In this document: positions 45,659 to 48,767 of the stretch, one piece after another | Position numbering within the stretch: the first letter of the stretch is position 1 | How the letters are laid out: each line of letters begins with the position of its first letter | From: Phycisphaerales bacterium | Lineage (GTDB): Bacteria; Planctomycetota; Phycisphaerae; Phycisphaerales; SM1A02 | Length of the DNA: 64,000 nucleotides | Reading direction: 5' to 3' | NCBI GenBank assembly: GCA_022447205.1 | Contig: JAKVBQ010000001.1 | Location: 1-64,000, forward strand | Program-made: the position numbers and the translations under genes | The notes under the pieces: generated by a model | Told to the model about the DNA's origin: nothing | Seen by the model: the letters and a program-made list of their open reading frames with translations, nothing else | Databases searched by the model: none

Positions 45659-46222
45659 CTACTCGTTGACCCGCTGGCTGTAGGTTCCGTCGTCCGTCGA
45701 GACTCTGACGATGTCACCGATGTTGATGAAGGGTGGGACCTTGGTCCTCAGACCCGTCTCGAGGGTCGCTTCCTTGAGCTGGTTGGTCGCCGTGGCGTTC
45801 TTGATCCCGGGAGGTGTGTCGCTGACCTCGAGATCCACGGCCTTCGGAAGCTCCACGCTCACCGGCCGACCCTCGCAGAAGAGCACGGTGATCTCGGTAT
45901 TCGGTTTCACGAAGGGCATCTGGGTGCCGACAAGCTCCTCGAACAGGGTCACCTGGTCGTAGGTTTCACCATCCATGAAGACGAATCCCGAACCGTCGTT
46001 GTACAGGTACTCCATCTGGCGCCGGTCGAGATCGACCTGGTCCACGTCCTCCACCGAGCGAAGACGCTTCTCGATCACCGATCCGGACTCGATGTTCTTG
46101 AGCTTCACCTGGACATAGGCCGGGCCTTTTCCGGGCTTGACGTGCTCCGTGTTCAGGATCACGTTGACCTGGTTGTCGACCTTCATGGCCATGCCGTTTC
46201 TGAGATCACTTGCCTTCATCAT
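45659..46222 (-). CDS. efp: Translation elongation factor P
   Basis: 187 residues, three-domain EF-P. It relieves ribosomes stalled at consecutive prolines. The modification loop reads HVKPGKGPA; the central Lys (equivalent to E. coli Lys34) is present, so lysylation or another lysine modification is possible, but no EpmA/EpmB or EarP gene lies in the window. The N-terminus MMKASDLRNGMAMKV is typical; two adjacent ATGs at 46222 and 46219 are both possible. The C-terminal GDIVRVSTDDGTYSQRV is the conserved domain III end. It appears monocistronic. Confidence 0.94.
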   Translation of the reverse strand: MMKASDLRNGMAMKVDNQVNVILNTEHVKPGKGPAYVQVKLKNIESGSVIEKRLRSVEDVDQVDLDRRQMEYLYNDGSGFVFMDGETYDQVTLFEELVGTQMPFVKPNTEITVLFCEGRPVSVELPKAVDLEVSDTPPGIKNATATNQLKEATLETGLRTKVPPFINIGDIVRVSTDDGTYSQRVNE

Positions 46223-46500: not shown

Positions 46501-47091
46501 ATGCGTGATATGAGCGATGACAGGAAGAAGGCGTGTTGTCACTGCTGGATCCCGGTGATGGGTGCCCTGCTCATCGTGATCTCCATAGCGGATTGTGGCC
46601 TTGCAGTCGTGCTCGGGTCGCTTGCAGAGGTGGTTCACCAGCTCGACAGGCAGGTCGATTCGCACACCACCGGCATGAAGGTGGCCGGCTTCTTCCATGG
46701 GCTCACCGGCGGTCTGGTGAATCTTGGAGACAGCCAGACCGGTGTCCGGATCCGATCTCTTGTCGATGAACTGCCTACGTACTGGGTGATGGCCACGTTG
46801 GCCTGGGGCCGTGTGTTCATCTGCATCCTGGGCTTCATCCTGGGCTGGCTCCTGGTCTGGCGGTTCAGGTTCGTGCCTTTCACCCTGATCGCCTGGGGGG
46901 TCTTCTCCCTCGTCTGGGGGCTTCTCTCGGTCAGTGAGGCAAGGGTGATCTTTCGTTCCCTTGTCATCGAGGATCTCACCATGGTGGGGGTCCTGTTGAG
47001 CTGCCTGGCCTTCTTGCTGCACCTCCTGTGGCCTTTCTACGTTGTGGTTCGGATGTTCAAGGGGATTCGAGCCGGCGACTTTTCCCGTTGA
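46501..47091 (+). CDS. Four-helix membrane protein, unknown function
   Basis: 196 residues with about four hydrophobic helices (WIPVMGALLIVISIADCGLAVV, VFICILGFILGWLLVW, FTLIAWGVFSLVWGLLSV, VGVLLSCLAFLLHLLWPFYVVV). A soluble loop of about 50 residues lies between helices one and two. The N-terminus has a KKACCHC cluster before the first helix. I do not recognise a family. ATG at 46501 or 46510 may start it; neither has a strong ribosome-binding site. No partner gene is adjacent. Confidence 0.55.
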   Translation: MRDMSDDRKKACCHCWIPVMGALLIVISIADCGLAVVLGSLAEVVHQLDRQVDSHTTGMKVAGFFHGLTGGLVNLGDSQTGVRIRSLVDELPTYWVMATLAWGRVFICILGFILGWLLVWRFRFVPFTLIAWGVFSLVWGLLSVSEARVIFRSLVIEDLTMVGVLLSCLAFLLHLLWPFYVVVRMFKGIRAGDFSR

Positions 47092-47228: not shown

Positions 47229-47260
47229 AAAAAAAAAGACCCCCGGCACAAGGCCGGGGG
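47229..47260 (-). terminator. Orphan intrinsic terminator on the minus strand
   Basis: An 8-bp all-GC stem (GCCCCCGG-type, loop of 5 nt) is followed on the minus strand by TC and nine T. The nearest leftward protein gene upstream ends at 48791, 1.5 kb away and beyond a rightward gene. Confidence 0.8.
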
Positions 47261-47505
47261 CGGAGGGAGGGAAAAGGGTTCGTGATCCGACCAGATCTCT
47301 GGTCGGGGCAGTCAAAGGTGCTCGTGATCTCCCTCAAAGGGACAACGAAAATGCCTTCTCATGCCAGTCGTTTGGGGGTTGGGAGTCTTCCTTCCGTCTC
47401 CGTGTGGAGCGCCTTTTTCCAAGTCCGACCCTGAAAGCCGATTCAGGGCATGAGGCTCTCATTCCTCAGGTCTGATCGTACATCAGAAACACCTGATGGG
47501 AAGTG
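47261..47505 (-). ncRNA. Candidate small RNA ending at the orphan terminator
   Basis: The terminator at 47229-47260 implies a leftward transcript. The region contains several short stems (47287-47306; 47431-47448 CCTGAA/TTCAGG; 47481-47498 CATCAG/CTGATG) and no good minus-strand open frame. The 5' end is a guess based on TACCAG at 47512-47517. No match to tmRNA, RNase P RNA, SRP RNA or 6S consensus was recognised. Confidence 0.35.
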
Positions 47506-47624: not shown

Positions 47625-48767
47625 ATGACCATTCGATTCGCGTCCGTCTTGCTTTGCTCGTCACTGATCCTGGTGGGTTGTGACCGTGATTCCGGCTCGT
47701 CGGAAGCGGCGTCCCAGAACGGAGATCAGCAGTCAGGGTCTTCCCTGACTGCGACCTCGCCGGAGGGTGGCGGTGGGCTCCTGACCCCGGGTGTTGATAT
47801 GTCACCCATCGCACCGATTCGAGTTGTTCCGGACATTCTCGACTGGGGACTGATCGCGCCCTATCAGGAAGCGACGGCTTCCGTCCGTCTGGAGAATGTC
47901 TCCGATCAGCCCATGAAGATCCTCACCGTCCAGCCAAGCTGCAAGTGCACGACGGTCGACAGTCTCGAAGGCCAGGTGATTCCTCCCAAGGGCTTCGTCG
48001 AACTGGAGGCGGTGCTTGATCCGCAAACGAACACCGGGACACGCAAGACCGTGATCAGGGTCCTGATAGACGGATACTCGAACGTGCTCAGCATCAACGC
48101 ACAGGCGGAGATCTCACGTCCGATCCGGGCCACGCCCACCTTCATCAATGCCGTCGATGCGGGAGAGGGTGGTGCCGTTCGGAACATGACAGGCACCGTT
48201 CAGATCGCCTCTCTCGACGGTAGTCCGTTCCGCATCAGATCCGTGCATGGCATGGCACCCGATCATGCAGGGGAATTCGACCCGGAGAATCCGAAGAACA
48301 GCTACACCCTGAACTACGACCTGGAGAACTTCCTCCAGCCTGACGGCAGGTATCCCCGTTACCTCATCTTCGAGACGGATCGAGCGGATTCACCGCTCGT
48401 CGAGGTCATGGTCAGGCACCGAATGAGCTCGCCCCAGCTGAACCGGAACTTCAAGCTGACCGATTACAAGATGAATCTCGGACGAGTGGCCCCTGGCGGA
48501 TCCGTCGAGGCGGCCCTCGGGGTTCACGAGGCGACCACTACCGGCGATCTCATTCAGATCACGAACGAACTCGGGTACCTGATCGAGCTCCTTGACCAGA
48601 GCGTGGATGAGGAATCGGATGATCTTCAGGTCCAGATCAGGGTCACCGTTCCAGAGGATGCCGAGCCCGGCTTCCACTACTTTCCGCTCCAGCTTTACGC
48701 CTCGAACCAGTCCCAGATCTCGATCCCCGCGTTCATCAGGGTCGATCCCGCTTCAGCTGCACCCTGA
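47625..48767 (+). CDS. DUF1573-type lipoprotein
   Basis: About 380 residues from the ATG at 47625, which opens a signal peptide ending in lipobox LILVGC. The mature region begins with a Ser/Gly-rich linker, then a DUF1573 domain: VVPDILDWGLIAPYQEATASVRLENVSDQPMKI followed by the characteristic CKCTT and ETxAxLDP-type strand. These immunoglobulin-like domains are abundant in planctomycetes and Bacteroidetes, with unknown function, probably in surface protein interaction. The second half (about 190-380) carries two further beta-sandwich-like segments. The gene has no same-strand partner nearby. Confidence 0.78.
   Translation: MTIRFASVLLCSSLILVGCDRDSGSSEAASQNGDQQSGSSLTATSPEGGGGLLTPGVDMSPIAPIRVVPDILDWGLIAPYQEATASVRLENVSDQPMKILTVQPSCKCTTVDSLEGQVIPPKGFVELEAVLDPQTNTGTRKTVIRVLIDGYSNVLSINAQAEISRPIRATPTFINAVDAGEGGAVRNMTGTVQIASLDGSPFRIRSVHGMAPDHAGEFDPENPKNSYTLNYDLENFLQPDGRYPRYLIFETDRADSPLVEVMVRHRMSSPQLNRNFKLTDYKMNLGRVAPGGSVEAALGVHEATTTGDLIQITNELGYLIELLDQSVDEESDDLQVQIRVTVPEDAEPGFHYFPLQLYASNQSQISIPAFIRVDPASAAP

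Follow-up and report, generated by a model that had tools for sequence, protein, structure and literature searches.

What transcript ends at an intrinsic terminator that has no gene behind it? The question is raised by the minus strand of the window (the whole 64,000-nt stretch of Phycisphaerales bacterium contig JAKVBQ010000001.1 that was analysed), where positions 47260–47240 read CCCCCGGC-CTTGT-GCCGGGGG, a perfect 8-bp all-GC stem (nine pairs with the flanking G-T), directly followed on its 3' side by TC and then nine T (47237–47229). The next likely minus-strand gene upstream encodes a TauE/SafE protein (49702–48791) and is approximately 1.5 kb away, and the observation of a lone leftward terminator that started this work therefore stands. 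The original prediction was that a structured non-coding RNA of about 250–300 nt ends here, or alternatively that the transcript is antisense to the leader of the neighboring DUF1573 gene. We find that a small RNA gene is almost certainly present at the locus, with predicted expression. The support comes from comparisons between genomes, which bear on the gene as a unit and its strand, the covarying terminator, the conservation of a candidate seed, the synteny, and the independence from efp. The best reading is an autonomous small RNA gene that forms a separate new family of a known kind, apparently undescribed. The features of the locus are collected in Table 1.

Table 1. Features of the small RNA locus and its neighbors, in window coordinates
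Feature	Position	Strand	Basis
Predicted small RNA, ~239 nt, 5' end 47468, 3' end 47230	47230..47468	-	-10, 5' hairpin and terminator; folding
Candidate -10 of the RNA gene, TACGAT	47475..47480	-	By eye; hexamers at the same place in relatives
5' hairpin, UGAGG-AAUGAGAG-CCUCA	47451..47468	-	Same loop and compensatory stem AGAGG..CCUCU in L097 and L123
Second body hairpin, CCCUGAAUCGGCUUUCAGGG	47429..47448	-	Minimum-energy and centroid structures (window sequence)
Hairpin before the seed, CCGACCAG-AGAU-CUGGUCGG (8-bp palindrome)	47287..47306	-	Sequence; differing hairpins here in most relatives
Near-invariant C/U-rich stretch, candidate seed, CCCUUUUCCCUCCCUCCG	47261..47278	-	Exact in 94/181 family genomes, plus one variant
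Intrinsic terminator: 8-bp GC stem, loop CUUGU, U run	47229..47260	-	Sequence; terminator scan; covarying stem
DUF1573 gene, divergent conserved neighbor	47625..48767	+	PF07610
efp, elongation factor P, usual downstream neighbor	45659..46222	-	PF08207, PF01132, PF09285

A terminator scan ranks the minus-strand hairpin first (9 pairs, 8 of them GC). The surrounding 7-kb region contains five terminator-like sites compared with 4.2 expected in shuffled sequences, which is the chance level, and the case for the terminator consequently rests on the comparison between genomes. A scan of contigs reported 89 stretches that reduced to 80 loci, and these together with the window were analyzed. By record title the 80 loci are mostly Phycisphaerales, Phycisphaerae, Planctomycetaceae and Planctomycetota MAGs, with unrelated bacteria named in a few of them. 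Relatedness among the genomes means that the counts below do not represent independent events. The stem that follows the seed is perfect in all 78 scorable loci, with lengths of 8–11 bp and 11 different stem types, and in each of the 78 there are 6–9 T within the ten bases after the stem. The covariation was assessed in a gap-free alignment of 20 distinct rows, each having a 9-bp stem and a 5-nt loop, from which the covariance model was also built. All 180 of 180 cells are paired, four of the nine pairs are changed on both sides, and the five outer C-G pairs are the same in every row; the signal was lost when the partner was shifted by one column. Rows with other stem lengths, including the window itself, lie outside this pair count and are covered by the scoring of the 78 loci. 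Early MAFFT alignments had the wrong strand or a misaligned stem and were not used for the model; RNAalifold applied to one such misaligned set reported only three invariant pairs and no covariation. The locus thus has its own intrinsic terminator, conserved as a structure in 78 of 78 loci with covariation, as is characteristic of a small RNA gene. The hairpin could have served only the rightward membrane-protein gene, as an end point for transcription in both directions, a case that fails in that only the minus-strand side carries a T run and that the element is kept in relatives with other genes downstream.

Directly before the terminator hairpin lies the C/U-rich 18-mer. A DNA search of 60 relatives and the window's own genome found the terminator and the C/U stretch in six other genera with 90–100% identity over 47–55 bases, and an alignment extending further upstream only in G001, a genome of the same genus (69% identity). 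Allowing at most one mismatch, the 18-mer (searched as CCCTTTTCCCTCCCTCCG) occurs in 96 of 181 genomes of the same family, in 59 of the 104 better ones, and in 14 of 45 genera, usually as a single copy in each genome, compared with one match for a reversed-pattern control in the same 181 genomes. Two of the 96 (G017 and G150) have only a one-mismatch site in a different context and without a terminator, leaving the 94 counted in Table 1. The search of relatives with a covariance model, in which the terminator and the seed are both scored, brought in one further clear case within the family, genome G118, with two C-to-U changes in its seed, both compatible with pairing to G; this brings the total to 95 of 181 genomes in 14 of 45 genera. 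Model matches up to approximately 33 bits, in the family and the phylum, were treated as generic terminators, with the exception of G138 (36 bits), which is cut by a contig end, has the exact 18-mer, and was kept. The contig scan required a 22-mer, and the invariance of the seed in its 80 loci is therefore a result of selection; the 18-mer and covariance-model counts in the family are the less biased figures.

About half of the family lacks the RNA gene. In a sample of 400 genomes drawn evenly from the order, the family included, there was a single 18-mer match outside the family, with a mismatch, and in a phylum sample of 392 genomes the covariance model found nothing comparable outside the family (best score 32 bits). 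As far as sampled, the distribution appears to be limited to the family. Several related observations are recorded here separately. In genus g17, a one-mismatch copy of the 18-mer, CCCTTTTCCATCCCTCCG, occurs in conserved context in 6 of 6 genomes (L191–L196) with no terminator; these CCATCC sites, present in all six fetched genomes, were not counted as RNA genes as they lack the terminator stem. Two C-rich stretches, CCCCUCCGCCCCC in L187 (same class, other family) and CCCACCCUCC in L188 (same phylum, other family), each directly precede a minus-strand terminator hairpin and each give a 32-bit model match; they are possibly convergent or distant relatives. Genome G112 contains two differing copies of the RNA 3' end (L198 and L199), each near a contig end, from either duplication or a mixed assembly.

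We infer the ends of the RNA from the positions of the -10, the 5' hairpin and the terminator. The resulting predicted RNA agrees with the original prediction in its structured nature and its 3' end, which is conserved in 14 genera with a covarying stem, and is slightly shorter; the start is probably near 47468 rather than at 47505, the 5' end proposed originally, which appears somewhat off. The region 47468–47230 folds below shuffled sequences with z = -2.68, and the 277-nt stretch first proposed gives z = -3.48. A scan for the sigma-70 consensus found no consensus promoter for the RNA gene. By eye, relatives of the window's clade have TAGTAT, TACTAT, TATAAT or TATAGT a few bases before the 5' hairpin, and in another clade TTTACA-like and TATG-like blocks precede a hairpin GCGGA-UGAGAG-UCCGC, with the stem GCAGA..UCUGC in L110; these promoter-like blocks are conserved within clades. 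The two mutually exclusive 6-bp hairpins noted earlier (47471–47476 with 47482–47487, versus 47481–47486 with 47493–47498) are real as sequence; each overlaps the predicted -10 or is located upstream of it, and both are hence probably promoter DNA rather than RNA structure. The -10-like hexamer also sits inside a short dyad (47471–47487 in the window) whose arms vary among relatives: TCTGAT..ATCAGA in the window, CTGTA..TACAG in L097, ATGAAG..CTTCAT in L123 and TGAT..ATCA in L121. The dyad may have arisen by chance or be an operator, or it may mean that the true RNA start is located further upstream.

The 5' body of the RNA can be aligned within clades only, and its length differs between clades, the RNA being predicted to be shorter outside the window's clade. 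The 8-bp palindromic hairpin noted in the window is present, and in most loci a hairpin of varying sequence likewise precedes the A-rich linker, with a mean score of 14.4 compared to 9.8 in simple shuffles; none was found in 3 of 81 loci. In the minimum-energy fold of the window sequence some bases of the 18-mer are paired. Its conservation and place suggest that the 18-mer is likely single-stranded in the relatives. No small open reading frame is conserved across seven loci of the window's clade, where the only peptide in common is an MRAS stretch, for which the conserved hairpin codes in three of the seven.

No Rfam 15 family reached its gathering threshold in the window, and in 17 related loci the same search yielded no family for the RNA and only a tRNA elsewhere in L072, so that a scan for a known family at this locus came out negative. 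The better sub-threshold matches are small RNA families located at the terminator. The two highest, at the same place and strand, are SorX (RF02784; 24.5 bits versus a threshold of 46.6) and suhB/mmgR (RF00519; 24.6 versus 41), and the RNA is not a member of either. In a literature search that had most subscription journals outside its range, the RNA was undescribed and no trans-acting small RNA of Planctomycetota was found. The accessible part of one review lists eight small RNA families for the whole PVC group (PMC9029176).

The genomic neighborhood of the RNA gene is conserved and bears on two explanations in which the RNA would serve an adjacent gene. Where the available upstream sequence reaches 1.7 kb or more, the DUF1573 gene is divergent upstream of the RNA in 60 of 60 loci (72 of 81 loci overall); where 1.2 kb or more is available downstream, efp follows on the same strand in 48 of 60 (53 of 81 overall), with only 35–70 nt between the terminator and the efp start in the closest loci. 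This arrangement could suggest that the RNA is the leader of efp and the terminator an attenuator that controls read-through into efp. We consider this very unlikely, given that the RNA is kept without efp within 1.2 kb in 12 of the 60 informative loci and that the distance to efp is approximately 1 kb in the window, with a rightward gene in between, and about 9.5 kb in G001. Moreover, in many loci a -10-like GCTATNNT lies, by eye, between the terminator and the efp start, which suggests that efp is served by a -10 of its own, located past the terminator. In G015, finally, only a short gap without the RNA separates the divergent DUF1573 and efp genes (L155), an empty site in a genome that falls inside the carrier group of the EF-P tree. 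The persistence of the RNA where efp is distant or absent, the apparent -10 of efp and the empty site in G015 together indicate a gene independent of efp. The constant presence of DUF1573, and the overlap of the two 5' ends that would arise from a DUF1573 promoter within the RNA gene, could favor the alternative included in the original prediction, in which the transcript is a cis-antisense RNA to the DUF1573 leader or shares an overlapping 5' leader with it. However, the body varies between clades, the conserved part is the 3' seed, which is farthest from DUF1573, and in the window there are approximately 155 nt between the predicted RNA start and the DUF1573 ATG. An antisense action on this leader as the main role is not supported by these data; the leader-antisense alternative is probably wrong, and we give any role of the RNA in the DUF1573 leader hardly any credence.

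The EF-P tree (54 carriers and 28 non-carriers) places the carriers within one fully supported group of 59 rows, which includes five non-carriers. One gain with subsequent losses is the simplest reading of the history of the RNA, but the EF-P tree, which is based on one short protein, needs three changes. The protein encoded between the RNA and efp in the window (46501–47091, plus strand) is a predicted 196-aa membrane protein with no Pfam match, and a 57% relative of it is found approximately 5 kb downstream of the RNA in L097, a locus from the same genus.

The composition of the 18-mer and its placement suggest a possible function for the autonomous RNA. By sequence and conservation it is a C/U-rich candidate seed complementary to the Shine–Dalgarno sequence, with tract cores CCCUCCC and CCUCC, and the 16S end of the same genome carries GGCTGGATCACCTCCTTT, a normal anti-Shine–Dalgarno. 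In the mechanism that we propose, the RNA would be transcribed leftward from its own promoter between the divergent DUF1573 gene and (usually) efp, and would end at the intrinsic terminator. From its 5' end it would consist of a body that varies between clades, a hairpin, a short linker rich in A, the single-stranded C/U stretch and the terminator hairpin. The C/U stretch, whose core CCCUCCCUCC resembles the ribosomal anti-Shine–Dalgarno, would pair with purine-rich initiation regions of several mRNAs and lower their translation in trans. We lean towards the view that the RNA regulates mRNAs by such base pairing, and the whole explanation, an autonomous small RNA gene acting as a trans-acting anti-Shine–Dalgarno regulator, appears moderately probable. 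Translational repression in trans is favored for the reason that a C/U tract between two hairpins resembles known anti-Shine–Dalgarno seeds.

Searches for specific targets were negative. With up to three mismatches in 17, the genome of the window contains six near-full complements of the seed beyond the gene itself, the same number as a control. The surrounding sequence was read for all six places and none was convincing as a target: the place with two mismatches lies opposite a 393-codon open reading frame, the L145 place overlaps the end of an upstream reading frame, and L147 was also checked for reading frames. Duplex energies at 344 gene starts (464 kb of one genome, mechanical gene calls) were no better than those of shuffled seeds. 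The same applied to the efp start region, and efp is accordingly not a supported target. Hfq (PF17209) was found in 0 of 12 family genomes; a control search of 14 known genomes detected it in 5 of them.

The same negative target tests (complements, 344 gene starts, efp start) fit a different role for a genuine small RNA gene, in which the C/U stretch is a binding site for a protein, as in a sponge or a chaperone site, rather than a seed that pairs with mRNA. Base-pairing seeds usually need fewer than 18 invariant nucleotides, which counts against pairing, and the stretch is both longer and more invariant than a pairing seed requires; it is this long invariance that leaves room for a protein-binding role. 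We nevertheless regard it as unlikely. The only seed variant found, that of G118, retains pairing with G, and the one known candidate protein tested does not fit. CsrA binds GGA motifs and is present in 12 of 12 genomes, but the RNA is not enriched in GGA; a CsrA sponge of the CsrB/RsmY type was rejected on the same basis, with no GGA excess over dinucleotide shuffles in 18 bodies. It is also conceivable that selection acts on the DNA and that the RNA is incidental. A G-quadruplex can form from four G runs according to the rule G3+N1-7; the plus strand GGGGGCGGAGGGAGGGAAAAGGG fits this pattern, and four runs of at least three G occur on the plus strand in all carriers in which CCCCC follows the exact 18-mer. 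However, the spacers between the runs vary no more than the G runs themselves, a constraint that a quadruplex would not impose, the G118 variant loses one run, and a quadruplex would leave the covarying terminator and the promoter-like blocks unexplained. We consider this explanation highly improbable.

The proposed anti-Shine–Dalgarno regulator has parallels in other phyla, as far as described in the accessible parts of the following sources. The AbcR1/AbcR2 (alpha-r15) and NfeR1 RNAs of rhizobia have anti-Shine–Dalgarno seeds, and one AbcR seed (UUCCCCUC) is part of an ultraconserved stretch and has a stem-loop on each side (PMC8844928); the candidate seed described here matches it in position and resembles it in composition, and the differences are the phylum, the lack of any Rfam family reaching threshold, and Hfq not being found in the 12 genomes searched. 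Rhizobial small RNAs with CCUCCUCCC loops have also been described (PMC3927594). In the csRNAs of streptococci, members of the CiaR regulon, an unpaired anti-Shine–Dalgarno stretch likewise lies between two stem-loops, the second of which is the terminator (PMC3091779). The csRNAs belong to another phylum, also carry an anti-start-codon sequence and depend on CiaR, and the promoters here, as far as read, are not shared. Single-stranded C-rich regions also act at Shine–Dalgarno sites in IsrR of staphylococci and FsrA of Bacillus (PMC9410917). IsrR has three C-rich regions where the RNA described here has one long tract; a sequence relationship was compared through Rfam only.

A broader possibility is that this is an Hfq-free planctomycete riboregulator, in which an 18–23 nt anti-Shine–Dalgarno mimic competes with ribosomes at many purine-rich initiation sites. 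Selection would then act almost only on the mimic, the rest of the RNA would turn over between genera, translation would be set broadly, and the place beside the EF-P gene would reflect a shared physiological role. We regard this reading as speculative and rather improbable.

These results provide this group of bacteria with an RNA that is widespread, is mostly present in one copy and has predicted ends, a named candidate seed and fixed synteny, and a covariance model is now available for its annotation. The search of 12 genomes of this lineage yielded no Hfq, and the use of base-pairing RNAs in such bacteria can now be tested directly.
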